A stretch of DNA of 64,000 nucleotides. It comes from Halorubrum trapanicum. Lineage in GTDB: Archaea > Halobacteriota > Halobacteria > Halobacteriales > Haloferacaceae. Positions 16,987 to 32,124 of this stretch are shown here, in pieces; position 1 is the stretch's first letter, and each line of letters begins with the position of its first letter. The notes beneath the pieces were generated by a model, which was not told the DNA's origin, searched no databases, and saw nothing but the letters and a program-made list of their open reading frames with translations. A program made the position numbers and the translations under genes. The stretch covers positions 1 through 64,000 of the forward strand of contig NZ_JAGGKE010000006.1 of NCBI RefSeq assembly GCF_017873555.1, given 5' to 3'.

Positions 16987-17691
16987 GTGACGGGTCCCTC
17001 CTCACCGCGACCGCTCGTCGTCTGTACGGAGGTAACACGGCGGTACGGTTCCGACGGCGGCCCGTTTACGGCCGACGGACGGACCGTGACGGCCCTGGAT
17101 TCGGTTTCGCTCGACGTCGCCGGCGGCGAGGTGGTCGGCGTGGCCGGTCCGAGCGGGAGCGGGAAGTCGACGTTGCTCCACCTGCTCGCCGGACTCGACA
17201 CGCCGACGAGGGGGGAGATCGAGGTCTGCGGCACGACCGTCGGCGCGCTGTCCCGCCGCCGACGAACGGCCTTCCGGCGGGAGAACGTCGGGATGGTGTT
17301 TCAACGGTTCCATCTGCTCCCCGCGCTCACCGCCCGCGAGAACGTCGCGCTCCCGCTGGTCCAAGCGGGCGTCGCTCGCTCGGACAGGCGGTCTCGCGCG
17401 AGCGAACTCCTCGCTGCCGTCGGGCTCGACGATCGGGGGTCGCATTACCCGAGCGCGCTCAGCGGCGGCGAGCAACAGCGCGTCGCCATCGCCCGGGCGC
17501 TGGCCGCCGACCCGGCCGTCGTCATCGCCGACGAGCCGACGGGCGAACTCGACAGGGAGACCGGCGAGCGCGTTCTCGACCTCCTCACCGACGTGAGCGA
17601 CGGCCGTGCCATCGTCGTCGCCTCTCACGACGAGTACACGCTCGGCCGTACCGATCGCGTCGTCCGACTGCGCGACGGTGCCCGGCAATGA
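16987..17691 (+). CDS. ABC exporter ATPase, MacB/LolD type
   Basis: This encodes 234 residues from a GTG start; no in-frame ATG is available nearby. Walker [10 protein letters not shown] is at 54-62. A MacB/LolD-type Q-loop ([19 protein letters not shown]), the signature LSGGEQQR (about 158), Walker [13 protein letters not shown] (about 174) and the switch His (VVASHDE) follow. This family powers FtsX-type permeases that export peptides or lipoproteins or act as mechanotransmission complexes. The stop overlaps the ATG of the first permease by four bases (ATGA at 17688-17691), so the genes are translationally coupled. The substrate is unknown. Its position before a SipW-type secretion locus suggests a role at the cell surface. 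Confidence 0.85.
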
Positions 17692-18917
17692 GCGCGCGAC
17701 TCCGACGAACCGCGGCGGTGATCGGACTTGGGGTGCGGCGCGTGTTCGGCCGGCTTCGCGGTGTCGCACCCGGACGCATGGGTGTCTGTATCGCGGGCGT
17801 CGCCGTCGCGGTCGCGCTGTTGTTCGTCGTCGCGAGCGTGTCGATCGGCCTCGCGGGCAGTACGACCGTCGAGAGCGAGGACATCGACTACTGGATCGTC
17901 CCGGACGACGGCGGCACCGGGAGCGTCCCGCTGGAATCGGAAGGCGCCCGCCTCAGCCAGGTTCACACCATCACCGCGGACCTCACTGCCGACGACCGGA
18001 TCGAGTACGCGTCCCCTGTCGCGTTACAGCCGCTTCGCTTGGAGAACCCGTCGACCGGCGACCGAGAGTACGTGATCGCGCTTGGGGTTTTACCGCCCGA
18101 TAGCCAGCGGCGCGTCGCCGACATGCGGCTCGGACCGCTGAGCGAGGCGTACCCGTACTACGCCGACGGCGAGTACGACGGCACGTGGACCGGTGAGTTC
18201 GTCGCGTCGCCGGCGGTCGCAGATCGGCTGGCGCTCGACGTCAACGACACCGCCGCGGTCGGCGGCGCGAACCGATCGCTCACGCTCGTCGGCGTCAACG
18301 ATCGCGAAATGGCCGCCGGGTTCGGTGAAGTGCCCGCGATCGCGATGCCGCTCGCGGAGCTACAGTCGCTGACGGGCCTCGCCGAGGCGGACGAGGCGGA
18401 CCAGATCCTCGTCAGCACGACCGACCCGAGCGTGGAGTCGGTGCTCGACGCGATCTATCCGCGCACGGAGGTCGTCTCGCGCGCCGGCCTCACCAGCTTT
18501 CAGACCACGTCAACGAGTCTGCCGCTGGCGATGGCGCTCGCCGCCACCGTCGTGGCCGGCGGGATCGGCGTCGCGTTCGTCGCGACGATGATGGGGCTGG
18601 AGCTGACCGCCGGTCGACGCGAACTGGCGGTGCTCAGCGCCGTGGGGTTTTCCAGACGCACCCAAGCGCTGGTCGTCGTCTCCGAGACCGTCACCGTCGC
18701 CGTGATCGGTGGGGTTCTCGGCGTCGGTCTCGGCGTATTCGCCACGTTCGCGGTGAACGCGGGGGTGGCCGCCGCGATCGGCGTCCCGTCGTTGGCGACG
18801 ATGACGCCGGCGGTCGCCGGCTACGCGTTCGTCGTCGCGGTCCTCGTGGGACTGTGTGCCGCCCCGTATCCGCTGTATCTGACGGTCCGAACGGACACGC
18901 TGGAGGAGCTCGGATGA
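17688..18917 (+). CDS. FtsX-like ABC transporter permease 1
   Basis: This encodes 409 residues from ATG 17688, which overlaps the ATPase stop. The frame is open much further upstream, but that part only shadows the ATPase gene. The topology is the MacB/LolC type: an N-terminal helix (GVCIAGVAVAVALLFVVASV, about 29-48), a large extracellular domain (about 55-275) and three C-terminal helices (about 285-400) with the FtsX-domain phrase GRRELAVLSAVGFSRR. It probably pairs with the second permease at 18914 as a heterodimer around the ATPase dimer. The stop overlaps the next start by four bases. Confidence 0.82.
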   Translation: MSARLRRTAAVIGLGVRRVFGRLRGVAPGRMGVCIAGVAVAVALLFVVASVSIGLAGSTTVESEDIDYWIVPDDGGTGSVPLESEGARLSQVHTITADLTADDRIEYASPVALQPLRLENPSTGDREYVIALGVLPPDSQRRVADMRLGPLSEAYPYYADGEYDGTWTGEFVASPAVADRLALDVNDTAAVGGANRSLTLVGVNDREMAAGFGEVPAIAMPLAELQSLTGLAEADEADQILVSTTDPSVESVLDAIYPRTEVVSRAGLTSFQTTSTSLPLAMALAATVVAGGIGVAFVATMMGLELTAGRRELAVLSAVGFSRRTQALVVVSETVTVAVIGGVLGVGLGVFATFAVNAGVAAAIGVPSLATMTPAVAGYAFVVAVLVGLCAAPYPLYLTVRTDTLEELG

Positions 18918-20152
18918 TGTCGCGAGTCCGCGCGGCGCTCGGTATGACCCGGATCGCGGTTCGACAGCTTCGCTCCGACCGAATGCGGACCGTCTTCGCC
19001 GTGGTCGGGGTGGCGCTCGCCGTGCTCTCCGTCACGCTGCTCGCCGGCGTGGGTGCGGGCGTCGTCTCGACGGGGAACGAGATGTTCGACGAGTCGGGCC
19101 GCGACCTGTGGGTGTCCGGTGGGCCGATCGACATCGCCCCCGGCTCAGTCGGGGGGTTCCGGAACCCGATCCCGAACGCGCATCCGCTCGCGGAGGAGAT
19201 CGCTGCCCACGAGGACGTCGAGACCGCGGTTCCGATGGCGTTTCAGGTCGTCTACGTGAGCACGGACGGCGAGGGGTTCGAGACGACAGTGGGGAGCGGG
19301 GTTCCGGGGGCGGGCGGGAGTTCCGTGTCGATCCGAGAGGGAGAGGGGCTCACCGGTCCGAACACCCACTACGCGGACGGGACCTACGAGGGGGAGATGA
19401 CCCGTCAAGCGATCGTGTCCCCCGAGACCGCGGAGGAGTTCGATCTCTCGGTCGGCGACACGGTTCACGTCGGCGGCACCATCGCGAACGCTCGGCGAAA
19501 CGAGTTCGAAGTGGTCGGGATCTCGCCCACGTTCGAGAACTTCCTCGGCACCGGCACCGTGACGATCCGACTGAGCGAGCTACAGACGCTCACCGGGAAC
19601 GCGTACGACGACCGCGCGACGCTGATCACGATCCAGACGGCTCCCGGGGCGAACCCGGAGGCGGTTCGCGACGAGCTCGCCGCCGAGCACCCGGAGTACA
19701 CGTTCCGCACCAACCAGGAGCAGCTCGTCTCGCTGCTCGAACGGCAGGCCGTCGTCCTCGCGGCGGGCGTGAGTCTGGTCGGTCTCGGCGTTATCGCCGG
19801 CGGGGTCCTCTCGTTGAACGTCCTGTTGTCGATGATCTACATCCAGCGGCGGTCGCTGTCCATCCTTCGCGCAGTCGGCGCTACCCGCCGGAGCGTCGTC
19901 GGCATCGCGCTCGTCGAATCGCTGGCGATCGCCGCCGCGGGCTACCTGCTCGCGATCGCCGTGACTCCCCTCCTCGCCGGGAGTCTCAATCGAATCGCCT
20001 TCGCCGTCACGGGATTCGAGGGACTCGTCCGAGTTCCGACGTACGCCTACCTCGCGGGCGCGGGCGTCGCGTGCGGATTCGCACTCCTCGGCGGCACGCT
20101 CGGCGCGTGGCGGGTCGGCCGTGTCGCGTCCGTGAGCGCCCTCGAACGGTGA
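18914..20152 (+). CDS. FtsX-like ABC transporter permease 2
   Basis: This encodes 412 residues, starting at the ATG overlapping the previous stop (18914; a second ATG follows at 18917). An N-terminal helix (RTVFAVVGVALAVLSVTLL) is followed by a MacB-like periplasmic-type domain with the typical GSGVPG and LTGPNTHYADG stretches. Three helices follow, with the FtsX motif RRSLSILRAVGATRRSV near residue 315. It is the closer of the two permeases to canonical MacB. It probably forms the exporter with the genes at 16987 and 17688. Only 86 bases separate its stop from the SipW-type signal peptidase start, so co-transcription with the secretion locus is possible. Confidence 0.83.
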   Translation: MMSRVRAALGMTRIAVRQLRSDRMRTVFAVVGVALAVLSVTLLAGVGAGVVSTGNEMFDESGRDLWVSGGPIDIAPGSVGGFRNPIPNAHPLAEEIAAHEDVETAVPMAFQVVYVSTDGEGFETTVGSGVPGAGGSSVSIREGEGLTGPNTHYADGTYEGEMTRQAIVSPETAEEFDLSVGDTVHVGGTIANARRNEFEVVGISPTFENFLGTGTVTIRLSELQTLTGNAYDDRATLITIQTAPGANPEAVRDELAAEHPEYTFRTNQEQLVSLLERQAVVLAAGVSLVGLGVIAGGVLSLNVLLSMIYIQRRSLSILRAVGATRRSVVGIALVESLAIAAAGYLLAIAVTPLLAGSLNRIAFAVTGFEGLVRVPTYAYLAGAGVACGFALLGGTLGAWRVGRVASVSALER

Positions 20153-20238
20153 CCGCGGGACCGAGTAATTCGGCGAACGACATATAGGTGAGAGGGTCCT
20201 ACCGACGCCGTAGCGTCGACATCTCGCACGCGCCATCA

Positions 20239-21423
20239 ATGAACCTCCGATCGCTGGCCGGATCCGGTGTGACGGCCCTTCTCGTCGTCGTGATCGTCGC
20301 CATGCTCGTCGGCCAACAGCTGGGCCAGCCGATCGTTCTCGGGTTCGTGCTCACCGGCAGTATGAACGCCGAGCCCGCGAACATGGCCCCGGGCGACGGC
20401 TTCGTCGCAGTTCCGCCGTCGATCGCCGGGGACATCGAGGAGGGCGACGTCGTCACCTTCGAGGCGCGCGAGCTACAGGGTGGCGGGCTGACGACGCACC
20501 GGGTCGTCGACGAGACCGACGAGGGGTATATCACGCGCGGGGACGCGAACCCCTTCACCGATCAGGACGGTCCCGAGCCGCCGGTTCAGGAGTCGCAGAT
20601 CGTCGCGGTTGCGTTTGAGCTCAATGGTGAGGTGATCGTGATCCCGCGGATCGGACAGGTGACCTTGGCCCTTCAGGCCGGATTCTCCGCCGCCGCGTCG
20701 GCGCTCTCCGGGATCCCCGGGCTGGATGGACTCGCCGAGGGGAACGTCGGCTCGTCGATGGTCCTCGTCGGACTGCTGCTGCTCGCGTACAGTCTCGTCG
20801 CCGAGGGCGTCGGCGGCACGAGCCGCCGGTCCGACCGCGGCGATCGCTCGCGTGACCGGCGCAGCGAGATGAGTTCGGTCCTGGTTCTCGCGGTGATCCT
20901 CCTCCTCATCACCGTCCCGGCGACCGCAAGCATGGTGGTTCCGTCGGGAACGGACGACATCACGATCGTGAGTTCGCAGACGCCGAGTTCGAGCCCCACC
21001 GTCATCGAGCGCGGCGGCTCGGTCGAGTACAGCTACAACTTTACAAACGACGGTATCATACCTCGGATCGCGACTGTCAACGCGGCCAGTACCGGCGTCG
21101 ATGTCGCGAACAGCTCGCTCATCGCGAATCGGGGTGAGACTGCCTCAACGACAGTTACCATCCACGCGCCCGAAGAGACGGGAGCGTACGTTCGGTCGGT
21201 CTCCGAGTGGCAGTACGTCCAGTTCCTCCCGGCGCCGGTCATCCTCTCGCTTCACGCGGTCCACCCGTTCGTCGCTGTCGCCGCCATCAATGCGGTTATC
21301 GTCGCGGTGGTTACTGCGGTGTACGTGTCCGCCGTCGGACTCTCGCCGTTTCGGTTCCGTGACCGGGAACGCGAGCTGTCGTTTTCTGACCGTCTTCGAC
21401 GGATACTCCGGCGGTGGCGGTGA
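20239..21423 (+). CDS. Type I signal peptidase, archaeal SipW type, with C-terminal extension
   Basis: This encodes 394 residues from ATG 20239; an upstream ATG at 20188 adds a basic leader before the first helix and is less likely. After a membrane helix comes TGSM with the nucleophile Ser41. The family boxes GDVVTFE, TTHRVVDE and the region YITRGDANPF follow. Archaeal/SipW enzymes use a His rather than the bacterial Lys as base, and the His of THRV fits. A second helix pair and an extracellular domain (about 230-335, with CARDB-like phrases) extend the protein beyond the usual roughly 200 residues. It probably removes signal peptides from the SipW-type proteins encoded at 22579, 23373, 24183 and 26549. 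Confidence 0.85.
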   Translation: MNLRSLAGSGVTALLVVVIVAMLVGQQLGQPIVLGFVLTGSMNAEPANMAPGDGFVAVPPSIAGDIEEGDVVTFEARELQGGGLTTHRVVDETDEGYITRGDANPFTDQDGPEPPVQESQIVAVAFELNGEVIVIPRIGQVTLALQAGFSAAASALSGIPGLDGLAEGNVGSSMVLVGLLLLAYSLVAEGVGGTSRRSDRGDRSRDRRSEMSSVLVLAVILLLITVPATASMVVPSGTDDITIVSSQTPSSSPTVIERGGSVEYSYNFTNDGIIPRIATVNAASTGVDVANSSLIANRGETASTTVTIHAPEETGAYVRSVSEWQYVQFLPAPVILSLHAVHPFVAVAAINAVIVAVVTAVYVSAVGLSPFRFRDRERELSFSDRLRRILRRWR

Positions 21424-21444
21424 CCGCTCCGCCGCCCGGATCGA

Positions 21445-22401
21445 TCACACGCCGATCGCCAGTCGAACGTTCCAGCCGGTGAGCAACAGCCCGACTCCGG
21501 TCGCGACCACCGGGGGCCAGTAGTACGAGAACCGTTCGCGCCGTCGCGCGCCCTGGACGCTGACCGAGATCAACACGAGTAACACGAGCAGCTTCAACAG
21601 GAGAAATCCGGGGATTCCGCCGGCGCTCAACAACCCGTCGACGACTGGGTTCGCCTCGACGAATCCCGGACCCGCGAGCGTCGCGTACAGCGTGGAGACG
21701 ACGTCGCCGACCCCGTACGTGAGCGCGGCGAGAAACCAGAGGGCGTAGAACTCGCGGGACCGGGTTCGGTACAGCGGTTCGCCTGCGTTGAGGTCCGGTG
21801 AATCGACAGCCGTTGTTCGCGACACGATCTCCGCCTCGCTTCCGCCGTCTCCCTGACCCGCATCCGGGTCGTCGATCGCCGCGAGCAGCGTGTCGATCTG
21901 CCGACGCCGGGCGGCGATCTCGCCGGTCAGCTCTCGGTAGCGCTCGTCGTCTGCCAACTTCGCGTCGTCCCGCCGCCGCTCCATCCCTCTGCGCCGCGCC
22001 ACGAGCGAGAGGTACGTGTCGACCGCGCTCGAAACGGCGCCGCGGTCGGCGAGACGTGCGACCGTCTCGCGGAGTTCGCCACGATCGATCGGTCGCGGTA
22101 CGTACTCGTCGATATCGAGTCGAAACACGTCGTTCCCGACGCGACCCCCCGAGAGAAGCCCGACCTGACAGTCGAGGTTTCGGGCGCGCAGTCGACCGAG
22201 AAGCTCCTCGGCCGGCGGGTCGGTGAGCTCGCCGTCGAGGAGGACGACGTCGACCCCGTCGAGCGCGTCGAGCGCGTCGAGCGCGCACTCGCTGTCGCCC
22301 GCGATACGGACGCTGTGTCCCTCCAGCCAGCCGGCGTACTTCTCGGCCTGCTCGCTGTTTCCTTCGACTATCAGGACCGTCACGTCGGTGTCACGGGGCA
22401 T
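21445..22401 (-). CDS. Receiver-like/HalX protein fused to a DUF5658-like membrane domain
   Basis: This encodes 318 residues. Residues 8-120 form a response-regulator receiver fold (TVLIVEGNSEQA start; VVLLDGEL holds the likely phospho-acceptor Asp at about 55). Residues 125-170 are a charged helical region typical of haloarchaeal HalX domains. Residues 215-318 contain three to four helices with YGVGDVVSTLYA and VEANPVVDGLL, characteristic of the DUF5658 membrane family. A receiver tethered to a membrane domain instead of a DNA-binding domain is unusual. It is convergent with the signal peptidase gene and may tie a two-component signal to this locus. No cognate kinase is visible. Confidence 0.7.
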   Translation of the reverse strand: MPRDTDVTVLIVEGNSEQAEKYAGWLEGHSVRIAGDSECALDALDALDGVDVVLLDGELTDPPAEELLGRLRARNLDCQVGLLSGGRVGNDVFRLDIDEYVPRPIDRGELRETVARLADRGAVSSAVDTYLSLVARRRGMERRRDDAKLADDERYRELTGEIAARRRQIDTLLAAIDDPDAGQGDGGSEAEIVSRTTAVDSPDLNAGEPLYRTRSREFYALWFLAALTYGVGDVVSTLYATLAGPGFVEANPVVDGLLSAGGIPGFLLLKLLVLLVLISVSVQGARRRERFSYYWPPVVATGVGLLLTGWNVRLAIGV

Positions 22402-22578
22402 CCCACTCCTCTCTTACTTGCGTTGCCGGAGCCATAAGACCGCGGGAACCGGTCGGGTAAGGAGCCAACGACACCCCTACGAGGTGTCGGACGATGTGAG
22501 CACCGTGAGGAACAGGTCGCCGTTTTGAGACAGATAATCGATCCTGACGGAGTCAAGAACGACCGAGGGCTATCGAGT

Positions 22579-23157
22579 TCAGCTGTCGGTCGCCTCAGCG
22601 CTGATCGTGAGAGTGAACGTCGCGTCGTCGTTGAAGTCCGAGATGTCTCCGTTGAGCAGGTCGATTTCGGCCCCGAAGTTGACCGCCTCTCCGCTGTCGA
22701 GGCTCGTGTCGTAGTAGTCGTCCGAGAGGATGTTGGTGTCTCCTGTCGCCGCAATCGTCTCACCGTTGGCGACGATGCCGAACGCCTCTTCATGATCTGC
22801 GTTGGCGTCGTCGGACCCCGTACCGGTCACATCGACCGTAAATGTGATCGAGTCGACCGTCTGCGTTCCGTTGTTGGTGACGGCGACCAGTTCTTCGAAC
22901 GTCGTCACGGCATTCTGGTTGAGTCCGTTCCCGTCCGCGTCACCAAGTGTGAGCTGGATCGTGTCGCCCGAATCGTCGACGTACGGGCCGTCCTCGTTGA
23001 CAGGCGTGAGTGCCAGGAGCGCGTCCGCGTCGCCCGTGGTCTCCACGGAGACCGTCCGCTGGGCCTCTACCGTGTCGAACGCGCCGGTACCCAGGATTGC
23101 GCCGCCGCCAGCAACCAATCCGCCCAGTCCGATCAGGACGCTACGTCTGCTTGCCAT
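22579..23157 (-). CDS. SipW-type secreted protein, DUF1102-like (paralogue 1)
   Basis: This encodes 192 residues from ATG 23157; the frame is open further upstream without a plausible start. The N-terminus MASRRSVLIGLGGLVAGGG is a twin-arginine or SipW-type signal leading to TGAFDTVEAQRTVSV, the typical DUF1102 beginning. The remainder is a beta-rich acidic domain containing FEELVAVTNNGTQTVDSI, which aligns by eye with the proteins at 23373 and 24183. These families accompany dedicated SipW-type signal peptidases and recall bacterial TasA/camelysin fibre proteins. It is probably secreted and may polymerise. The gene diverges from 23373 across a 215-bp promoter region. Confidence 0.72.
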   Translation of the reverse strand: MASRRSVLIGLGGLVAGGGAILGTGAFDTVEAQRTVSVETTGDADALLALTPVNEDGPYVDDSGDTIQLTLGDADGNGLNQNAVTTFEELVAVTNNGTQTVDSITFTVDVTGTGSDDANADHEEAFGIVANGETIAATGDTNILSDDYYDTSLDSGEAVNFGAEIDLLNGDISDFNDDATFTLTISAEATDS

Positions 23158-23372
23158 ACCTGTCCTCTGTGGCCTACCCACTTTGTATTGAGTCGCTTGA
23201 ACCGTCGCAAGCCGATCCGAACCGCGGTATCGATGGGCTTGAACCGCGTATCGCGGTGGCTGAACGGCCGGATGATTTCCGGGATTCCGCGGTCGCCGCG
23301 GAAAGCCCGTCAATACAAAGCCGTCGAGCGACGAGGGGCTGACACGGGCGCGTTTCCGCGCCGAACCCCAAG

Positions 23373-23939
23373 ATGCCCACGCGACGACAGACCGCACTCG
23401 GCCTCGGCTCGATGGCGCTCGGCAGCGCCGTCGTCAGCTCCGCGTCCTTTCTCTCGGAAACGACTGCGGCGGCAGACCTCCGGGTCGTCGTCTCCTCGGA
23501 ACTCTCGCTCACGCCCGGCCGTGCCGGCGAGGAATACGTCCGAACCGACGACGACGGCGAGGTCGAGGCGATCGTGATCGAGCACCTGAACCAGCGGGCG
23601 ATCTCGCAGTTCGAGGAGCTGGTCGAGGTGACGAACAACGGCGACGTGCCGTACGACCGGCTCGCCTTCTCGTTTTCCGCGGCGGGCGATGACCCCGACG
23701 CGTCGAGCGTTGCGGTCGCGGAGACGCTCCGGGTGGTCTCCGCCGACGAGCCGACGGGGACGGACGCGCAGGGACGGACGACGGTGCTCGCGGACTCCGG
23801 CGAGACGTTCGATGCCGGCGACGTAGTCACGTTCGGACTGGTCGTGAACCTGATCCCCGACGACGCGCCCGGCAACCTCGAAGAACTCCCCGAGCAGTCG
23901 AGCGTCACGCTGGAGATCGCCGCGATCGACGAGGAGTAA
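23373..23939 (+). CDS. SipW-type secreted protein (paralogue 2)
   Basis: This encodes 188 residues. The signal MPTRRQTALGLGSMALGSAV precedes SSASFLSETTAAADLRV. The mature part starts LRVVVSSELSLTPG, comparable to FQVYTVQELNVTRG in the protein at 24183. It contains FEELVEVTNNGDVPYDRLAF, shared with the 22579 product. A single beta-sandwich of TasA-like size is expected. It lacks Cys residues and membrane segments after the signal. The N-terminal form and the nearby signal peptidase suggest co-export with its paralogues. Whether it forms fibres is inference. Confidence 0.68.
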   Translation: MPTRRQTALGLGSMALGSAVVSSASFLSETTAAADLRVVVSSELSLTPGRAGEEYVRTDDDGEVEAIVIEHLNQRAISQFEELVEVTNNGDVPYDRLAFSFSAAGDDPDASSVAVAETLRVVSADEPTGTDAQGRTTVLADSGETFDAGDVVTFGLVVNLIPDDAPGNLEELPEQSSVTLEIAAIDEE

Positions 23940-24182
23940 CTGCGATCTGATACTTTTGGCGCTGGACGGATCTCTCAATGTTTGGTAGCACGGACCACGA
24001 ATTGACACCATGCGCTATCATACCGTTAGCGTCTGCCGATTTCCTGTGTGGATCTGGTCTCGTCAAGCACCGCTTGAAGCCGCTTCCGAGTCCGGATCTG
24101 GATTCAAGCCCCTCCTTCGATCGTTTCAGGTAAGCTAATACTAAGTGGATACCTCCGTATGAGGTGAGTAGGTGGAAGCTAT

Positions 24183-24917
24183 ATGGTCAAGCGACGCAGC
24201 ATGGTGGTCGGTCTCGGGGCGTTGGCAACAGGAAGCGGCGCGGTCTTCTCGTCGGCGGCACTACAGAGTACGAGTGCGAGCAACGCCTCGTTCCAAGTGT
24301 ACACCGTTCAGGAGCTGAACGTCACGCGCGGTAGTAGCGATTACGACCGGGAAGACAACAATATCTCGAAGGCAAGTGACCTCCCGCAGGCCGATGTCGA
24401 CGGCGACACGCAAGGCGATGATCTCAGTGTTAATGTGGCGACGAAAAACAACGCCTCCAGCCAGTCGTTGGCTCACTTGCTCGACGTGGAAAACAACGGC
24501 ACGGAACCCGTCAACGTGGCCTTCGGATTCAGTACGTTCGGCAGCATCGTCGTCGACGGTGATTCGACAAATCCCGGAGACGGCGAAGTCACAGAGGATC
24601 AGGTTCAGGGAATGTACAGTTTCCAGGTAAACACGAGCGACTCATCTGACGGGATCAACAGTGATAACGGAACGGACATCTCCCCCGGGACCTCAAATGC
24701 GAAGGACGCCCCTCAGAATTATAAAACGATCCCGGCTGGTGAGACGTTGGCGGTCGACCTCGTCGTCGACGCACCAAGTGAGGTCGTCTCGGCTATCAAT
24801 CAGGCGTCGGATCCAAGTGGCAACCCGTTCGACAAGGAAAGCCAGGCCAACACGACACTCGTCAATGAGATCCTCGTCGGAACCGAGAGTGACCTAACGA
24901 GTACGGGTAATCAATAA
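24183..24917 (+). CDS. SipW-type secreted protein (paralogue 3)
   Basis: This encodes 244 residues. The signal MVKRRSMVVGLGALATGSGA runs into VFSSAALQSTSAS. The mature protein is Asn/Asp/Ser/Thr-rich, with several sequons and a beta-sandwich-like pattern including LAHLLDVENNGTEPVNVAFG, homologous by eye to the FEELVxVTNNG segments in 22579 and 23373. It is longer than its paralogues because of an inserted Gly/Asn/Asp-rich loop region (about residues 120-190). Codon and base composition are slightly more AT-rich than in the neighbours. It is a likely substrate of the signal peptidase at 20239. A 243-bp spacer upstream gives it its own promoter. Confidence 0.68.
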   Translation: MVKRRSMVVGLGALATGSGAVFSSAALQSTSASNASFQVYTVQELNVTRGSSDYDREDNNISKASDLPQADVDGDTQGDDLSVNVATKNNASSQSLAHLLDVENNGTEPVNVAFGFSTFGSIVVDGDSTNPGDGEVTEDQVQGMYSFQVNTSDSSDGINSDNGTDISPGTSNAKDAPQNYKTIPAGETLAVDLVVDAPSEVVSAINQASDPSGNPFDKESQANTTLVNEILVGTESDLTSTGNQ

Positions 24918-25020
24918 TCGGCAACCGGCTCATGACATCGTTTCTCGGATTGAACTGTTCGATTTGACTCCTTCACCCTGACGTGTTCCAACACGACGCC
25001 AGACGACGACGATCACGCGC

Positions 25021-25560
25021 ATGATCAGCCGACGACAACATCTTTTCCGAATCGGCGCGACGGCGAGCATTCTCGTCTCGGGATGTCTCGGTGGCGACGA
25101 CAGGGAACTGCCCGGGATGGACTCTGATGGAGATTCACAGCCCCGCGAGGTCGTCATCACGTACGACGAGGCGCTCACCGCTCGCAACGACGCCGTAGCT
25201 GCGCGCGACGAGGGGATCACGGCGTTCAACGAGAACGCGTACGCCGACGCGATCGACGCCATCGAGACCGCGCGCTCCGGCTGCGAAGACGCCGAGGACG
25301 GGTTCGCTGAGGCTGCCGACCTCGCAGCCGAAATCGAAGAAGAGACGGCGGCCGGAATCTGCGAGACCGCCGTCGACGAGACCGCGCTTCAGGCGGACGC
25401 CACCGACGCGGCGCTCTCGGCCGCACAGGCCGCTCGTGACGGCGCCGACGCGGAGACGATCAACGGTCACATCGAGCGGTTCCGGTCGCTCCGCGAGGAC
25501 GCCGCAGCGCTTACGGTCGAGGACACGGACGCCGTCGCGAGCGCCCTCGGACTGGAGTGA
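25021..25560 (+). CDS. Tat-exported helical lipoprotein, function unknown
   Basis: This encodes 179 residues. The twin-arginine motif SRRQHLF and a lipobox LVSGC (Cys22) predict Tat export and lipid anchoring. After an acidic Asp/Gly linker, residues 45-179 are almost wholly alpha-helical, with Ala/Glu/Asp heptad-like repeats (YDEALTARNDAVAARDEGI; YADAIDAIETA) and two Cys at about 81 and 118 that could form a disulfide. The fold resembles helical-hairpin surface lipoproteins. It lies among the SipW-type proteins on the same strand and may be an accessory anchor. I cannot assign a family. Confidence 0.65.
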   Translation: MISRRQHLFRIGATASILVSGCLGGDDRELPGMDSDGDSQPREVVITYDEALTARNDAVAARDEGITAFNENAYADAIDAIETARSGCEDAEDGFAEAADLAAEIEEETAAGICETAVDETALQADATDAALSAAQAARDGADAETINGHIERFRSLREDAAALTVEDTDAVASALGLE

Positions 25561-25785
25561 CTCGCGCACGAGGGCGAGCGGAATACCCGAATAATTATAC
25601 TGGTTCGAACTAGTCACTCCGATAGCATGTGTGGGAGCATGAGCCGACGGCCGGTCTGGAGACTGCGTTCCGTTATCGACCCCGCCGATCCCCGAAGCGT
25701 CCGGACGGAGACGCGCTGATGTCGCACCCGACACCGATCGCTGGAGCGCTCAGCCTGATGCGTTCGTCGCCGGAGGTGCCGTGAC

Positions 25786-26331
25786 GTGTCGCTCGACGAC
25801 CAGCGGAAGTACACGCCGCCCGAGCAAGACGAGATATACGACCTGTTGAGCAACCACCGCCGGCGGTACGTGATCCACTTCTGTAAGCAGGCGGACGGCC
25901 CCGTGTCGCTCTCGGACCTCGCGGAGCGGGTCGCGGCGCGCGAGCAGGACAAGTCCGTCTCGGAGCTCACGTCGAGCGAGCGCAAGCGCGTGTACACCTC
26001 GCTCCAACAGACGCACCTCGATCGGCTGGCGGAGGCGGACATGGTGGAGTACGACGGCCGCGAGGTCGAACTCACCGAGAACGCCACCGAACTCGACGTC
26101 TACCTCGACGTCGTCCCCGAGGGGTCGATCCCGTGGGGGGTCTACTACTTGGGACTCTCGCTCCTCGCCGTCGTCGTCCTCGGCGGCGTCTGGATCGGGT
26201 TCGTCCCCACGGAGCCGGTCCCGGAACTCGGGTGGGCGGCCATCGTCGTCGCGGTGTTCTTGGCCTCCTCTGTCGCACAGGTGATACAGAACCGGCGGTA
26301 CCGCCTCGGCGACATCGACGAACCGCCGTGA
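25786..26331 (+). CDS. Winged-helix membrane protein, DUF7344-like
   Basis: This encodes 181 residues from a GTG at 25786. Residues 12-100 form a haloarchaeal winged-helix domain (YDLLSNHRRRYVIHFC, then VYTSLQQTHLDRLAEADMVE, the recognition and wing region of the DUF7344 type). Two membrane helices follow (about 117-137 and 148-168), ending in a basic QNRRYRLGD tail. It is probably a membrane-bound transcriptional regulator. Related genes are typical companions of SipW/DUF5305-type clusters, so control of this locus is plausible. Confidence 0.7.
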   Translation: MSLDDQRKYTPPEQDEIYDLLSNHRRRYVIHFCKQADGPVSLSDLAERVAAREQDKSVSELTSSERKRVYTSLQQTHLDRLAEADMVEYDGREVELTENATELDVYLDVVPEGSIPWGVYYLGLSLLAVVVLGGVWIGFVPTEPVPELGWAAIVVAVFLASSVAQVIQNRRYRLGDIDEPP

Positions 26332-26548
26332 GCACCGCTGGCTGCGGCACGGGACCTTTCGGAGCCGGAGGCCTGCTCGCCGCCCGTCACCCACGAAAGC
26401 ACAGCAATACTATACGTCCGCAGAACTAACTCTTCGTCCGAGAGACACCTGCTGATCGCAGATCAGCCCACCGACGACGGGGCGATACCGTCCCCGTGTG
26501 GCCGGTGACATCGGGCGAACGGACGCGAAAGACCAAACGGGGGTCAAC

Positions 26549-27595
26549 ATGGGACGAAAACGTCGACGCAGTCGGGGGGGCGAGAGCGGCCGCGTGAGCC
26601 GCCGGGCCGTCCTCGGTGTGCTGGTGGTCGGAGCGGGCGGCGCTGCCGGCGTCCAGAGTACCGGAGCCTTCTCGTCGGTCACCGGCAGCCGCCAGTTCAG
26701 CGTCGGCACCGCCGCCGACGAAAACGCCCTTCTCGGGATCGAGCCGGCCGCTCCCACCGGCGACACGGGCGAGACGGTACGGCTGTTCACGGTCACGAAT
26801 CGGTTCGACGAAGCGCTCGTCCTCGACCGCGTCGGCGTGCGCTCGTCCGGATCGCTCGGGATCGGGCGGAGCGACCTCCAGATCGATCGGCGGACGCTCC
26901 AACCGGGCGGGACGACCGATATCGCCGCCGGACTTTCGTGTTCGTCGGACACCACCGACGACGTCGAGATCGCGATCCGCGCGGCGACGAGCGACCGCGA
27001 TGAGTCGGTGGAACTGGTCCGGTCGACATCCGTCACGTGTGAAGCCGCCGCGTCCTGTCTCACCGGCCCGGAGATCGAACTGGAATCGGAGACGGTGCCC
27101 TGTATCGATGTCCACCTCCGAGGCGGCGGAGAAGTCGATATCGAGGCCGAGGGGAGTACCGTCGACGGCGACGCCGCGGTCACGCTCGGCGGCGGGGGAG
27201 AGGTCGCAGTCGGACTCGAAGGGAGCCGGATCCGCGGCGACCTCCGGATCGAGATCCGCGGCGGCGGGTCGGTCGACCTTTCGCTGGCGGACAGCGAGAT
27301 CGACGGCGCGGTCCGGATCGACACGCCGGGCGGTGCCGAAGTCGAAGTCGAGATGGAGAATTCGACGATCGGCGGCGGCATCTCCATGAACCTCGGTGGC
27401 GGCGGCACGGTCGGTCTCTCGATGGAGGACAGCGAGATCGGCGACGACACCGAGATCACCACGGGCGGCGGCAGCGAAGTCGGCGTCGAGATGGAAGGGA
27501 GTCAGATCCGCGGCGACCTCGCCGTCGACTCCGGCGGCGGCAGCGAGGTCGAGGTCGAAACGGAAGACAGCGTGATCGAAGGTGACCGTCCCTGA
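26549..27595 (+). CDS. SipW-type secreted protein with predicted beta-solenoid repeats
   Basis: This encodes 348 residues from ATG 26549; a GTG at 26498 in the same frame is possible. A basic leader and SRRAVLGVLVVGAGGAA signal lead to STGAFSSVTGSRQFSV, matching the DUF1102-like start of the 22579 product. Residues about 60-185 form a beta domain with four Cys. Residues 195-348 are at least six imperfect repeats of 22-26 residues with the pattern GGGxVxVxxEgSxIxGD and alternating hydrophobic positions. This predicts a right-handed beta-helix, as in polymer-forming or autotransporter-type stalks. A secreted polymeric surface role is likely; the partner is unknown. Confidence 0.72.
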   Translation: MGRKRRRSRGGESGRVSRRAVLGVLVVGAGGAAGVQSTGAFSSVTGSRQFSVGTAADENALLGIEPAAPTGDTGETVRLFTVTNRFDEALVLDRVGVRSSGSLGIGRSDLQIDRRTLQPGGTTDIAAGLSCSSDTTDDVEIAIRAATSDRDESVELVRSTSVTCEAAASCLTGPEIELESETVPCIDVHLRGGGEVDIEAEGSTVDGDAAVTLGGGGEVAVGLEGSRIRGDLRIEIRGGGSVDLSLADSEIDGAVRIDTPGGAEVEVEMENSTIGGGISMNLGGGGTVGLSMEDSEIGDDTEITTGGGSEVGVEMEGSQIRGDLAVDSGGGSEVEVETEDSVIEGDRP

Positions 27596-27641
27596 CGCCC
27601 GAGCCGGCGCGGAACGTGGCCGTCCGTCGGGCGCGGCGTCC

Positions 27642-28760
27642 TCAGAAGTCGAACTCGCGGAACTCGTCCATCGTCATGTCGGCGTAGTTGACGAGCCAGT
27701 CGCTCGCCGGCGAGTCCGGCCGGACGTAGAGGTACGCGAAGTCGCCGTCGAGGACCGTGCTCACTCCGAGCTGCTCGTCTTTGATAACGCGTTTGTTGGT
27801 GTCTATCGCGACATCGACTAACCCCTCCAAGTCGTCGACGAGGATCGTCGCCTCGTAGTCGCGTTCCGACGGGAACGTGCCGCGGGTTATCCACTCGGAG
27901 AACTCCTGTTCCTGCTGGTGGATATCCAGGATCTCGCGCTCCTCCGGCGAGACGGCGGCGTACCCGCTCCGTTGGGCGAAGACCAGTCCGGCAGCGCCGC
28001 CGATCCCGAGGAGGAAAAGCAGGATCGATCCGACCGTCTCGACCGTCCCCGGGTCCACCGCTCGCTCGACCGTCTCCGTCTGCTGGCCCGATTCGTCGAC
28101 GGTGTTCATCTCCAGCACGCGGAACGTCTGTGGGTTGACCGTCATCGGCATCGTGCTCTCGTAGGCTTCGCTCACCGACTGCCCCGCCAGCGTCCCCTCG
28201 ACGGACGACGCCGCGACGATCCGGATCTCTATCGTTCCGGCGGCGCCGAGCTGCCGTTCGATCGTCCGGATCGTCTCGAACACGGACTCGATCTCTACGG
28301 CCGCATCGACGGTGTGATTGTCCTCGTTCGTGACTCCGTCGTTTCGGCCGCTCGCCAGCGGCTCGGCGTACTGCCAGAGCACCGTGTCCCCCTCGACGCC
28401 GCGATACTGAAGCCGGACATCGGTGGTGACGTTCACCGAGCCGGTCTCGGCCGTGTGTTCGTACACGTACGTCACGTCGAGTTCTCTGGAGAGGTTCACG
28501 TAGTACACCGGTCGGTTTCGGACGCGCTCACCCTCTTCGAACACGAGGGAGTCGTTCGTGATCACCGTGCTGTGTTCGTACGCCGTCGACTCGCTCCACT
28601 GTTCGACGACGACCTCCTCGCGCTCGACGTCCTGCGTCGCGTGGACCTGATAGCTCCACCACCCGCCGATCGCGGCGAGGATGAGGAGCACGGCGAGGAA
28701 GACGCCGGACCACTTTTCGAGGAACGCGCGGATCCGAAGTGACTGATCGATGTCGCTCAC
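27642..28760 (-). CDS. DUF5305-like membrane protein
   Basis: This encodes 372 residues. A helix at about 19-39 (FLAVLLILAAIGGWWSY) is followed by an extracytoplasmic beta domain (50-240) with VYYVNLSRELDVTYVY, typical of DUF5305. A second helix lies at about 250-270 (ILLFLLGIGGAAGLVFA). A cytoplasmic domain (280-372) includes an IDTNKRVIKDEQ stretch. DUF5305 proteins commonly sit beside SipW-type signal peptidases in haloarchaea. The exact role is not established, but assembly or quality control of the secreted substrates fits the topology. It is convergent with the beta-solenoid gene (46-bp gap) and follows the DUF7504-like gene on the same strand. Confidence 0.75.
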   Translation of the reverse strand: MSDIDQSLRIRAFLEKWSGVFLAVLLILAAIGGWWSYQVHATQDVEREEVVVEQWSESTAYEHSTVITNDSLVFEEGERVRNRPVYYVNLSRELDVTYVYEHTAETGSVNVTTDVRLQYRGVEGDTVLWQYAEPLASGRNDGVTNEDNHTVDAAVEIESVFETIRTIERQLGAAGTIEIRIVAASSVEGTLAGQSVSEAYESTMPMTVNPQTFRVLEMNTVDESGQQTETVERAVDPGTVETVGSILLFLLGIGGAAGLVFAQRSGYAAVSPEEREILDIHQQEQEFSEWITRGTFPSERDYEATILVDDLEGLVDVAIDTNKRVIKDEQLGVSTVLDGDFAYLYVRPDSPASDWLVNYADMTMDEFREFDF

Positions 28761-28813
28761 GGCGGTGTCTCAGCGGGCGTTTTTCGGGGTGTCTCTGGTC
28801 GTTCTCCCGTCAT

Positions 28814-30001
28814 CTATTCCACGTACGTCCCGGTCGAGTCCATCGAGACGACTTCGTCGAACAGGGGTTTGAGCGTATTGATCGCCTGCGGATCGCCTTC
28901 GAGCGGGTCGGCGTGAAAGTGCGCGACCGCGTCCGTCTTGGTGAACGTGCTGAGAAATACGTGGAGAAACCGGAACGCGTTTTTGACGTCTCTGTAGTTC
29001 AGCAGGACGTTCAGCGAGTCGTAGCAGACACGGATCTCCCGGTCGTCGGTCGACCAGCCCTGCGTAATCCTCGAGACGACGATCCCGAGCCGAGTGATGT
29101 CGTTCGGGTTGTTGATCTGTGTGGACTCGACCGTTCCGTCGGCGGCGGGGGGAACCGACTGCGCGTACCCGACGGAGATCACGTGGGTCCGGTGCCCTTC
29201 CGACGCGATGTCTTCCAGCCGCTCGCCGCCCATCGGCTGGTAGCGGACGAGCAGCACGTACGGGTCGCGGTCGCTCTCCCGCCCGAACAACAGCTCGTGA
29301 CAGCCGTTCCGAGTCCGTTCAGACCGCGATTCGGACTGGACCAGCACGTTCGTTCCGGGATCGAGTCGTCTCCCGTCGAGGGCCGACTCGTCCTCGGCGA
29401 ACCCGGACGCGTCCAGCCCTTCCGAGGTAGCGGTCGGTGAAGGCTCGGCCGACACGCTTCCGTCCGACGGAGATCGAGTCGCCTCGGTCATCGTGGAGGA
29501 CTCCCCCGTCGCCGAGATCTCGTTCCAGATCCGACCGCTGGTCTCGTCCGTCCGGTCGTCCAAGCTCGGTTCCGTCCCCACTCCGGCCGCGTCGGTTCCG
29601 GTTCGCCCCGCGTCGTCCCTCGACGGATCGCCATCAGTTGAAATGTTTCCTACCGACCCGTCGTCCGTCGATTCGTCGTCTTCCGGCCCGTCGTTCCACA
29701 GCCGACCGCCTCCCTTCTGCCGGTCCGTGATGTCGCTCGCGCGCGGCTCAGGCGGGTCTCGCCCGACCGCGTTCCCGGACTCGTCGTTGCCGACCCACTC
29801 CCAGCGGTCCGTGTCGATATCCGGATCACTTGTCCGACCGCTCGCGTCGTCGCCGGTGTCGGGCGACTCGCCGTCACGCCGTCTATCCGGGCCGTTCTCC
29901 GATCGACCGGCGAACTCGTCGCCGAACTCTGAGGCGATGTCGCTGAACCTGCTGGCGCGATCGGACCGACTTCCGGAGCGCTCTCCGTCGGATCCGGTCA
30001 T
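28814..30001 (-). CDS. DUF7504-like RecA/KaiC-fold protein with long disordered N-terminus
   Basis: This encodes 395 residues. The first about 220 residues are low-complexity, rich in Asp/Gly/Arg/Ser/Thr and probably disordered. Residues 225-395 resemble the DUF7504 family: a KaiC/RecA-like core beginning GTNVLVQSE in the notes' reading (TNVLVQSESRSERTRNGC), where a Walker A loop would lie but no GxxxxGK[S/T] is present. It then has the conserved ICYDSL-like element (VCYDSLNVLLNYRD) and FRFLHVFLSTFTKTDAVAH. It is therefore unlikely to bind ATP in the usual way. It lies 53 bases upstream of the DUF5305-like gene on the same strand, so joint expression is likely. Confidence 0.62.
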   Translation of the reverse strand: MTGSDGERSGSRSDRASRFSDIASEFGDEFAGRSENGPDRRRDGESPDTGDDASGRTSDPDIDTDRWEWVGNDESGNAVGRDPPEPRASDITDRQKGGGRLWNDGPEDDESTDDGSVGNISTDGDPSRDDAGRTGTDAAGVGTEPSLDDRTDETSGRIWNEISATGESSTMTEATRSPSDGSVSAEPSPTATSEGLDASGFAEDESALDGRRLDPGTNVLVQSESRSERTRNGCHELLFGRESDRDPYVLLVRYQPMGGERLEDIASEGHRTHVISVGYAQSVPPAADGTVESTQINNPNDITRLGIVVSRITQGWSTDDREIRVCYDSLNVLLNYRDVKNAFRFLHVFLSTFTKTDAVAHFHADPLEGDPQAINTLKPLFDEVVSMDSTGTYVE

Positions 30002-30299
30002 TGTCGGCGGGGCGTCTGGGGGCGAAGCTCGTTGCCCGTCACCGATGTGTGTCGGCGGTCATCCGTAGACGCGGTCCGCTGCCGGGATCGATAAGAGGGT
30101 TGCGGCAGTCGGTCGGACTTGGTTGAGACAGGGAGGCGACCGTGGTGTTCTGCCATCCTGATACTATTTACCAGACTAGTAGTTTCATATTATAAAACTA
30201 TCGTAACCGAACGGGCTCTGGGTCGGATATCCCGGTTTTCTACGAAATCAGACGCTTTCAACCAACTTTTGATGGTACTCGATTCACATTGGTTCCGGG
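30002..30299. other. Intergenic DNA upstream of the DUF7504-like gene
   Basis: This is about 300 bp without a convincing gene. It should hold the minus-strand promoter for the gene starting at 30001. The AT-rich part at 30165-30215 contains several TATA-like strings. A weak 70-residue plus-strand ORF at 30119-30331 has no recognisable features. Confidence 0.35.
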
Positions 30300-30545
30300 A
30301 ACGGAAGACCACGAATTTAGTCGTGGTTTGACATCATCCCCACGCTGAAGTGCCAGGATTCCTCCGTTGGGGGTTCGGCTACCGATCCACGGAGGCAACT
30401 TGCGGGTTCGTGCGCACTTCTTTGGGACTGTCGTGAGGGTGGTTGCCCCGACCACTCGTGGTCGTCTCACTCGAATCGCACGGGCCGTGCCATCCTCCTG
30501 ACACGGTATTGCTTCGCCGCAAGTTGGCGTCAACACCCAACTATT
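30300..30545 (-). mobile_element. IS200/IS605 (TnpB-type) 3'-end remnant
   Basis: The palindrome CCACGA-N6-TCGTGG (30309-30326) lies beside GGATGATGTCAAA on the minus strand, the expected right end of an IS1341-type element. The minus frame through 30330-30545 reads a basic stretch (RAIRVRRPRVVG, then ARTRKLPPWIGS) consistent with the extreme 3' end or read-through of a tnpB, though no zinc-ribbon or RuvC motif remains. It differs in sequence from the remnants at 644 and 39256, so it derives from another subgroup. It sits in the promoter region of the gene at 30577. Confidence 0.55.
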
Positions 30546-30576
30546 AAACGGACAAATACCGTAGCTTATCGGTGTA

Positions 30577-31554
30577 ATGGGCACTCGGGACAGCGAAGGC
30601 GACACCGCGGCCGACGCCGACACCTTCCAGCAGTGGGTGAGACACACCGCGGAGTCCCGAGGGATGACAGAACACGAGCTCTTGAACCAACTCGTTTCCG
30701 CGTTCTGGGCCCTCGACGAGATGGGTGACATCGGTCTCGATTCCGCGTCCGCCCCGGAAAACGCTGAGTCCGGAACCGACCGGAAGTGGAAGCCCCCCCG
30801 AGATAGATCAGATGGCGATACAGCGCCATCCGGCACAGAGACAGTTGGCGGAGACGAGACGACGACGCCGAACTCGCCCGAGTCGGAGACGTCGGAACAG
30901 CTCGATCCGGACGACCTCGACCCTCAAGACGACCTCAGCCCGACGGAGGTCGAACTTACCAGGCGGGTCGCGGAGCTACGGCGACAGATCGCCGACCTCT
31001 CGCTCGACGTCGAACAGCAGCGGTCCAGACAGGAGGAGTTCACCGATCGGCTCTCCGACGACGTGACCCGGATTCACAGCGAGATTCAGTCGCTCGAATC
31101 CCGTGTGGATCAGGAGAACGGCGAGGTGACGGACCGAATTGACGCCGTCGAAGCGAGCCTTGAAGACGTTGAGGAAACTCAGGCCGAGTTCGAGACGTGG
31201 ATAAACGAGGAGTTCGATCAGATTGAGGCCCTCTTCGAGCAGGTCCTCGGCACAGTCCGCGGGTTCGACGACCGGATCGAGGAACTTTCGACCACTGTCA
31301 ACACCGTTTCCGACGCCGAGCAGGACCGCGAGGCCCTCGATACGGTCCGAAGACAGGCGATCCGGAAGGGAATCGACACCGGGCGGTGCGAGAACTGCGG
31401 TATGACCGTCGACCTGTCGATGCTGTCGGAGCCTTTGTGTCCCTCGTGCGATGAGCAGTTCTGGGACGTCGAAGACGCCGCCCTGTGGAACCCGTTTTCG
31501 AAACCGACACTCCGGACCGACGGTCGACCATCCCGGCCGTCCGACCGTGAGTGA
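30577..31554 (+). CDS. Coiled-coil protein with C-terminal zinc ribbon
   Basis: This encodes 325 residues, soluble and acidic. Residues 14-50 (FQQWVRHTAESRGMTEHELL) resemble a short CopG-like or helical domain. Residues 50-125 are disordered. Residues 128-250 form a long coiled coil (ELTRRVAELRRQIADLSLDV and the following heptads). Residues 265-300 form a Cys4 zinc ribbon (GRCENCGM and LCPSCDEQF). The layout suggests a dimeric or oligomeric scaffold or DNA-associated factor, but no function can be named. The gene starts just beyond the IS200/IS605 remnant. A TTAAAC-like box near 30543-30550 could act as its promoter. Confidence 0.62.
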   Translation: MGTRDSEGDTAADADTFQQWVRHTAESRGMTEHELLNQLVSAFWALDEMGDIGLDSASAPENAESGTDRKWKPPRDRSDGDTAPSGTETVGGDETTTPNSPESETSEQLDPDDLDPQDDLSPTEVELTRRVAELRRQIADLSLDVEQQRSRQEEFTDRLSDDVTRIHSEIQSLESRVDQENGEVTDRIDAVEASLEDVEETQAEFETWINEEFDQIEALFEQVLGTVRGFDDRIEELSTTVNTVSDAEQDREALDTVRRQAIRKGIDTGRCENCGMTVDLSMLSEPLCPSCDEQFWDVEDAALWNPFSKPTLRTDGRPSRPSDRE

Positions 31555-31593
31555 ACTTCTGCCGCCGGCGTGAGTTTTCAGCGTAGGAGACCG

Positions 31594-32124
31594 TCAAAAC
31601 AGCGTTGCGGCCTCGATACCGGCCACCAGCTTGGTGACGTTGTACATCGACACGGCCGCGAACAGCGCGGACGGAACTCCGTATCCAACCAGGCGAACTA
31701 CCGATGCGAGGTGGGCGTCCGCTCGGCGCGCACACACGGTGATGGAGGCGACTTCGGTGACCAGTGCGATCACGGCGATGACCGCGAAGGAGGTAACGAG
31801 GAGTCCGGTGGTGACCCCCATTCGGTGGAGCAGGAGCGCTACCATAGTGTTCGCCTCGTAGATCCCGGGAACGTACACGAGTCCGACCGCCGTCGTGGCC
31901 GCGTCAACCGCCTTCGTCGCGGTCAGTAGCGCGATCCCCGACACAGAGAGGAGGCTCCGTCTCGCGTTTCCGAACTGTTGGGAACCGACTGTCGACCGCG
32001 ACCGCTCGGACGGCCTTCCTCCCCGTCTCTCCGCCCGACGCCCTCGGCGTTCACGCTCTTCCCGATCGTGCCAGGGCCTCTGTCCGCTCTGGGACCGATC
32101 CGGTCGATCCGCGCGCCGCGACAT
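31594..32124 (-). CDS. DUF5658-like membrane protein with Arg-rich N-terminus
   Basis: This encodes 176 residues from ATG 32124; a TTG at 32139 is in frame but weaker. Residues 1-52 are extremely Arg-rich and probably cytoplasmic. Three to four helices follow, with AVDAATTAVGL and YEANTMVALLLHRMG, matching the D-x-x-T and E-A-N signature also visible in the C-terminus of the 21445 product. A strong TATA box (TTTATATATTTT on the minus strand at about 32147-32158) lies about 26 bases before the ATG, predicting a leaderless transcript. Function unknown. Its reading frame is convergent with the zinc-ribbon gene, 39 bases apart. Confidence 0.68.
   Translation of the reverse strand: MSRRADRPDRSQSGQRPWHDREERERRGRRAERRGGRPSERSRSTVGSQQFGNARRSLLSVSGIALLTATKAVDAATTAVGLVYVPGIYEANTMVALLLHRMGVTTGLLVTSFAVIAVIALVTEVASITVCARRADAHLASVVRLVGYGVPSALFAAVSMYNVTKLVAGIEAATLF

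Follow-up and report, generated by a model that had tools for sequence, protein, structure and literature searches.

A probable SipW-dependent fimbria locus of Halorubrum trapanicum and a conserved DNA element upstream of its pilin-type genes

The stretch of Halorubrum trapanicum DNA analysed here (64,000 nucleotides, contig NZ_JAGGKE010000006.1, hereafter the window; genome size 3.08 Mb) carries at positions 20239-31554 a locus consisting of a gene for a SipW-like signal peptidase, genes for four exported pilin-like proteins labelled T1-T4, and genes for DUF5305, DUF7344, DUF7504 and coiled-coil/Zn-ribbon proteins. SipW-dependent fimbriae are a recent addition to the known surface filaments of archaea, and we consider it likely that this locus builds and regulates one, belonging to the superfamily of TasA, the archaeal bundling pilus and the haloarchaeal Taf fimbriae. 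Homology, gene order, catalytic residues, co-occurrence, a protein repeat and a DNA element together with its specificity were observed directly. The system is a divergent variant of a known filament kind. Its shaft family and accessory genes are new, and its regulatory element is both specific and widely conserved; among named systems the haloarchaeal Taf fimbriae, and not TasA itself, are its nearest kin.

Results

SipW-like signal peptidase

The peptidase gene (20239-21423, + strand) encodes 394 amino acids, including a C-terminal extracytoplasmic beta domain placed between membrane helices. The motif TGS41M and residues H87, D102 and D108 were invariant in 43 homologues from the loci fetched for comparison, and for this reason the enzyme is assigned to the Ser/His type, typical of SipW and the endoplasmic reticulum (ER)/archaeal signal peptidases, and not to the Ser/Lys type; a Ser-His dyad with a downstream Asp replaces Ser-Lys, as in the SipW-type (S26B) group. 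An earlier note on this DNA, made from the letters alone, had proposed a SipW-type peptidase at this position, in agreement with these residues. The score of 50.0 bits lies slightly below the cut-off for archaeal signal peptidase I (51.85), and as no second full-length SipW match was found anywhere in the Halorubrum genome, this peptidase is the sole such hit. It would be the enzyme that cleaves the neighbouring pilin precursors. A 3-residue insertion by the active site was considered as a fit to the unusual cut sites of T2 and T3 and rejected, since one related locus (L065) has T2 and T3 without it.

In two relatives, L044 and L076 (about 5624-6840), SipW is split into two frames, and in L076 the break falls in a stretch of at least nine G; T4 is also split in L044, where the affected regions are about 12158-13664 and 4332-5095. 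Sequencing error, decay or phase variation may each account for these breaks.

Signals, homology and fold of T1, T2 and T3

T1 (22579-23157, - strand) is a TafE-like pilin, either adaptor or subunit; T2 (23373-23939, +) is a pilin-type protein that evolves slowly and shares homology with T1 and with the N-terminal domain of TafF; T3 (24183-24917, +) is a probable shaft subunit. Together with T4 they carry the SRR/KRR-type signals that the earlier note had described (T1 MASRRSVL, T2 MPTRRQTA, T3 MVKRRSMV, T4 VSRRAVL), the T4 start at 26549 being backed by conservation of MGRKRRRSRG in relatives. The twin-arginine translocation (Tat) pattern R-R-x-phi-phi, followed by a weakly hydrophobic stretch, is present in T1, T3 and T4, and R-R-x-phi-phi was found in 96 of 142 signal sites of the family in the fetched loci, which suggests Tat export. 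The VTNNG-like (or ENNG) phrase noticed earlier in T1, T2 and T3 also proved to be more than coincidence: each of these proteins has a single V[TE]NNG, at least two of the three carried it in none of 20000 shuffles, and the NNG columns stand opposite each other in the profile alignment, with VTNRF at the matching place of T4.

None of T1-T4 matched a Pfam family at E<=1, camelysin included. NCBIfam models gave 76.7 bits for T1 and 29.8 for T2 with TafE, about 21 for T3 with TafA/TafE, and 75.8 for T4 with TafC. Because the signals of T1-T4 are alike, hhalign was run on mature parts only. The profiles of T1 and T2 (99.1), T2 and T3 (97.2) and T1 and T3 (89.0) matched each other, as did those of T1 and TafE (98.6), T2 and TafF (90.4) and T4 and TafC (97.3), compared with at most 0.5 for unrelated neighbours and at most 1.8 for column-shuffled profiles. 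Moreover, the mature profile of T1 matches a solved pilin, Protein Data Bank (PDB) entry 9p0a, with an E-value of 4.6e-18 over about 120 residues. The mature N-terminus of T1 is its most conserved part (9 of the first 13 residues are invariant), as expected of a strand that fits into other subunits.

The AlphaFold model of T3 is suggestive, though no proof, of a pilus fold. Its best Foldseek match in the PDB was the bundling pilus 7ueg (probability 0.97, E 9.8e-4, 8% identity), with the archaeal thread 7pnb at rank 9 and the TasA fibre 8aur at rank 24. The nearest solved fold thus belongs to a TasA-related pilus, so that folds unrelated to TasA, named in the earlier note as grounds for abandoning its proposal, were not what the search returned. 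T3 is also the most variable protein of the locus: most of its orthologues are 34-43% identical to it, yet the signal hardly changes, and two relatives have T3 in duplicate; this combination is expected of an exposed shaft protein.

T4, a candidate tip protein

T4 (26549-27595, +) consists of an Ig/PapD-like, TafC-related N-terminal domain followed by seven 23-residue repeats. Autocorrelation reached 0.38 at lag 23 (maximum 0.21 in 1000 shuffles), and one relative is shorter by one repeat, 288 residues instead of 311, a difference of exactly 23. The repeats are modelled as a regular beta-coil (predicted local distance difference test, pLDDT, about 93-98; 88 for the whole protein), in keeping with the beta-solenoid foreseen in the earlier note. 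That note had further proposed several paralogous TasA-like subunits. Several paralogous beta-rich subunits do accompany SipW, and in this part the proposal stands; it does not extend to T4, which, as its N-terminal domain is Ig/PapD-like and TafC-related and not a TasA sandwich, is better read as a tip adhesin than as a further fibre subunit.

A DNA element upstream of pilin-type genes

Pilin genes are preceded by the element TTCAAGC-N4-CAATACAAAGTGGGTAGG. The T1-T2 intergenic region contains two outward-facing copies of CAATACAAAG: the T1 element, TTCAAGCGACTCAATACAAAGTGGGTAGG (23173-23201, -), agrees with the consensus at 25 of 25 positions, and the T2 element, AAGCCCGTCAATACAAAG, lies at 23303-23320 (+). 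AAGC-N5-AATACAAAG occurs at exactly two sites in the genome, both at T1/T2, even with one mismatch allowed. The core AATACAAAG was 20-fold over-represented in the fetched loci (35 sites, 1.8 expected), and at 31 of these 35 sites a pilin-type start follows within 150 nt. Spacing is conserved as well, the first base of the core standing 33 nt before the T1 ATG in window-type loci and 32 nt in the window itself. If T1 is leaderless, this position, with the core at -33 to -25, would be that of the TATA box and TFB-recognition element (BRE). On its own the short core lacks specificity, since the genome has four other exact AATACAAAG sites, of which two seem to fall within TnpB-like coding sequence.

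T3 is preceded by a variant, TTCAGGTAAGCTAATACTAAGTGGATACC (24125-24153, +), which agrees with 18 of the 25 consensus positions (maximum 15 in 60 shuffles) and recurs as the same variant in five relatives. At least 18 of 25 positions were matched in 38 of 171 pilin-type upstream regions, compared with 0 of 274 for machinery genes and 0 of 445 shuffles. A weight matrix above 12 bits (null maximum 8.4) separated the two classes similarly, with 72 of 211 pilin-type and 2 of 363 machinery upstream regions, and assigned to the common Halorubrum form of the locus its own dialect of the element, TTCTGG-N5-TCATAACGATATGGGATAGG.

Across 392 haloarchaeal genomes the longer pattern matched at 65 sites, spread over 58 genomes of 24 genera, and the reversed pattern at none. 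In a blind test, 30 new regions were picked by the element alone; 29 contained a T/Taf-type gene, 25 a SipW gene and 26 a DUF7344 gene, and in 26 the element stood directly upstream of a pilin-type open reading frame. An Rfam scan of 20000-32000 returned no match, which sets the element apart from the known RNA families. Scans for bacterial-type promoters and terminators gave counts at chance level, bacterial models being uninformative for an archaeon.

Conservation and distribution

Identity of orthologues to the window proteins was 64-83% for the peptidase, 63-90% for DUF5305, 70-88% for DUF7344, 43-91% for T1, 44-84% for T2, 34-79% for T3 and 42-85% for T4. The earlier note had made its idea depend on co-conservation with the peptidase, and this was found: TafE-like proteins and SipW occurred together in 46 genomes, were both missing in 10 and were discordant in 3 (1 and 2; Fisher 1e-8). 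In near-complete genomes, SipW lay within 20 kb of 37 of the 51 TafE-like genes, where 1.2 were expected.

DUF5305 was present in 51 of 52 genomes of the genus. The window form (60-100% identity) accounts for 12 of them, and almost all of the rest have a second form (about 28-35%); the two forms were never together in one of these genomes. DUF7344 is found in 42 of 46 SipW loci, and the window genome has only 2 copies. In the first fetched set, T2, T3, DUF7504 and the coiled-coil gene were restricted to window-type loci. T2 and T3 are absent from canonical Taf and common Halorubrum loci; DUF7504 is likewise absent from both and is kept in other genera, which hold DUF7504, the coiled-coil gene, DUF5305, DUF7344, T2, T3, T1 and SipW together. 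In the order as a whole, 21 of 392 genomes, from 6 of 95 genera, carry T3. Two loci (L101, L102) contain a minimal cluster, T3-SipW-T3-DUF7504-coiled-coil, without T1, T2, T4, DUF5305 or DUF7344.

It should be added that one fetched region (L025, G017:C16 1-20000) holds about ten TafE/T1-like genes and three DUF7344 genes but lacks SipW throughout the 20 kb that were retrieved.

Other genes of the locus and its borders

The companions named in the earlier note are true Pfam members: DUF5305, a membrane-anchored protein and conserved SipW partner (27642-28760, -; E 4e-50), and DUF7344, a winged-helix protein with C-terminal hydrophobic segments and a candidate regulator (25786-26331, +; E 7e-28). 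The helical lipoprotein it described is likewise present (25021-25560, +), with an SGCL lipobox, and is kept in part of the window-type loci. Its right border at 28760 was drawn too short, as the conserved module reaches about 2.8 kb further and includes two conserved accessory genes: DUF7504 (28814-30001, -; Pfam E 6e-39), for which a profile search of the PDB gave no match, and a coiled-coil protein with a C-terminal Zn-ribbon (30577-31554, +), kept in related loci.

Between the peptidase and T1 lies a receiver-HalX-DUF5658 membrane protein (21445-22401, -; Pfam), a lineage-specific member with strong matches restricted to window-type loci among those fetched. In some relatives T1 and the receiver gene are separated by an additional gene (L033 9231-10250, L019 8673-9716, L058 2893-3804, L044 9511-11067, L020 12101-13657), T1-like or encoding a second TafC-like solenoid protein, depending on the relative; in the window it was lost or never present.

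A LolD-like ABC ATPase with two FtsX/MacB-type permeases (16987-20152, +) directly precedes the peptidase gene. This transporter was rejected as a member of the system, since it adjoins SipW only in the window genome and two relatives. Further upstream are a rhomboid protease with intact GxSG and His (15878-16651, -) and a giant protein of 4080 residues with CARDB, ASPM-SPD-2-Hydin-like Ig and PKD domains (3634-15876, +), fragments related to which adjoin SipW in two relatives (L019, L020). A same-strand rhomboid gene lies no more than 2.5 kb from SipW in 22 of 46 SipW loci, as a rule next to a CARDB protein whose C-terminus carries a membrane helix, and a fimbria-associated membrane protein may be its processing target.

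Discussion

Proposed assembly and relation to known filaments

In the model that we favour, pilin precursors with twin-arginine, Gly-rich signals would cross the membrane, probably via Tat, and the SipW-like peptidase would cut them just before a conserved GAF-type site (predicted GA|F). The freed N-terminal strand may then complete the beta-sandwich of the next subunit, by analogy with the donor-strand assembly of TasA, the thread and the bundling pilus (PMC9674648, PMC9715654). T3 would form the shaft, T1 and T2 could act as adaptor and as nucleator or base, T4 would present its solenoid at the tip, and DUF5305 may be a membrane-anchored assembly or anchoring partner; the biofilm or matrix role considered in the earlier note is conjectural. 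The common promoter-proximal element marks pilin genes and not machinery genes, with the neighbouring DUF7344 as its putative reader.

Canonical Taf loci of the same genus contain SipW, TafC with a LamG domain, DUF7344, TafA, TafE and TafF. The window shares with Taf fimbriae the SipW-type peptidase, the DUF7344 neighbour, TafE-like and TafC-like proteins and similar signals; it differs in that its members score below the cut-offs, TafA and TafF are missing, T2, T3, DUF7504 and the coiled-coil gene are unique to the window variant, and T4 has a solenoid where the TafC examined has LamG. As T1-T4 stay below the Taf cut-offs and T2 and T3 are absent from canonical Taf and common Halorubrum loci, we regard the system as a divergent and patchily distributed variant. 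The pilin 9p0a, whose 'haloarchaeal' label rests on its sequence, resembles T1 in the signal and over roughly the first 120 residues of the mature part, whereas the C-terminal half is not alignable. The bundling pilus 7ueg, described as TasA-related and donor-strand complemented (PMC9674648), is the nearest solved fold to T3, yet identity is 8%, template modelling (TM) scores are below 0.4 and the gene neighbourhood is presumed to differ. TasA fibres assemble via an N-terminal donor strand (PMC9674648), and the Bacillus TasA/TapA/SipW system resembles the window in its dedicated SipW-type peptidase with beta-sandwich substrates (putative ones in the window) and in the place of 8aur among the T3 fold matches. 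Unlike it, the window has twin-arginine signals, more subunit types, a solenoid tip protein and the archaeal partners DUF5305 and DUF7344, and there is no sequence-level match.

Strength of the interpretation and alternatives

Several results weigh against the fimbria interpretation as proposed. The T2 signal is without the x-phi-phi part of the Tat pattern. Scores of T1 (76.7 against a cut-off of 155), T4 (75.8 against 410) and T3 (21.1 against 190) fall short of the Taf thresholds, which true Taf members pass in the fetched loci L023 and L030, and there is no TafF match. T3 has no profile similarity to TafA (hhalign 0.3) and no sequence match in the PDB, its model has a mean pLDDT of 73, and its TM-scores with 7ueg are low (0.33/0.39). 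In near-complete genomes, 14 of 51 TafE-like genes, roughly one in four, have no SipW nearby. DUF7344 is a candidate reader of the element on proximity only, a role that we hold to be slightly on the doubtful side. The interpretation as a whole stands on sequence and model evidence.

T1-T4 might instead be individual beta proteins, processed by SipW and then secreted or associated with the S-layer, that serve as adhesins or matrix proteins and do not polymerise. This would agree with the weak TM-scores of T3 and with the Ig-like, solenoid-ended T4, polymerisation itself being deduced. Nonetheless, T1 is homologous to a solved pilin and to TafE, a named fimbrial adaptor, and several paralogues with a common conserved mature N-terminus fit strand exchange, which makes this alternative quite improbable. 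Somewhat more credible, although still unlikely, are two overlapping fibre systems, one formed by T2/T3 with SipW, DUF7504 and the coiled-coil protein, the other being a Taf-type T1/T4 module joined later. T2 and T3 have one mature N-terminus in common and T1 and T4 another, T2/T3 are confined to window-type loci, and the minimal T3-SipW cluster dispenses with T1, T2 and T4; however, a single SipW and a common DNA element serve T1, T2 and T3, and these three are kept together in several genera. Assembly of the type IV or chaperone-usher kind is hardly credible, even if type IV pili may be encoded elsewhere in the genome and the T4 domain resembles PapD-like folds: the hydrophobic stretch precedes the predicted cut site and the mature parts are beta-rich, unlike type IV pilins with their class III signal and a helix retained after cleavage, and no assembly ATPase, prepilin peptidase or usher is found among the conserved neighbours.

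Within the fimbria interpretation, a joint reading can be offered tentatively, which we regard as rather doubtful in its entirety. Haloarchaeal SipW fimbriae would form a dedicated regulon, with a non-canonical core promoter or operator (TTCAAGC-N4-CAATACAAAGTGGGTAGG and its dialects) before pilin genes only, read by the co-conserved, membrane-anchored winged-helix DUF7344 or by a dedicated TFB/TBP, and with pilins exported pre-folded by Tat yet assembled by donor strands.

Implications

The open literature searched contained no earlier description of the DNA element, no paper on DUF5305, DUF7344 or DUF7504 and no dedicated paper on Taf genes, haloarchaeal fimbriae or 9P0A, although the NCBIfam Taf names imply published work. 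The locus shows that haloarchaea carry several divergent versions of SipW fimbriae, of which one combines a separate shaft family with a tip formed by a beta-solenoid and with two conserved, as yet unexplained genes. The DNA element offers a first handle on fimbria switching and a sequence tag by which fimbria loci can be found without protein searches, and DUF5305, DUF7344 and DUF7504 can now be tested as components of a single system. Should the twin-arginine signals prove to be genuine Tat signals, pilins that exchange strands would be exported in folded form, which would be unexpected in mechanistic terms.

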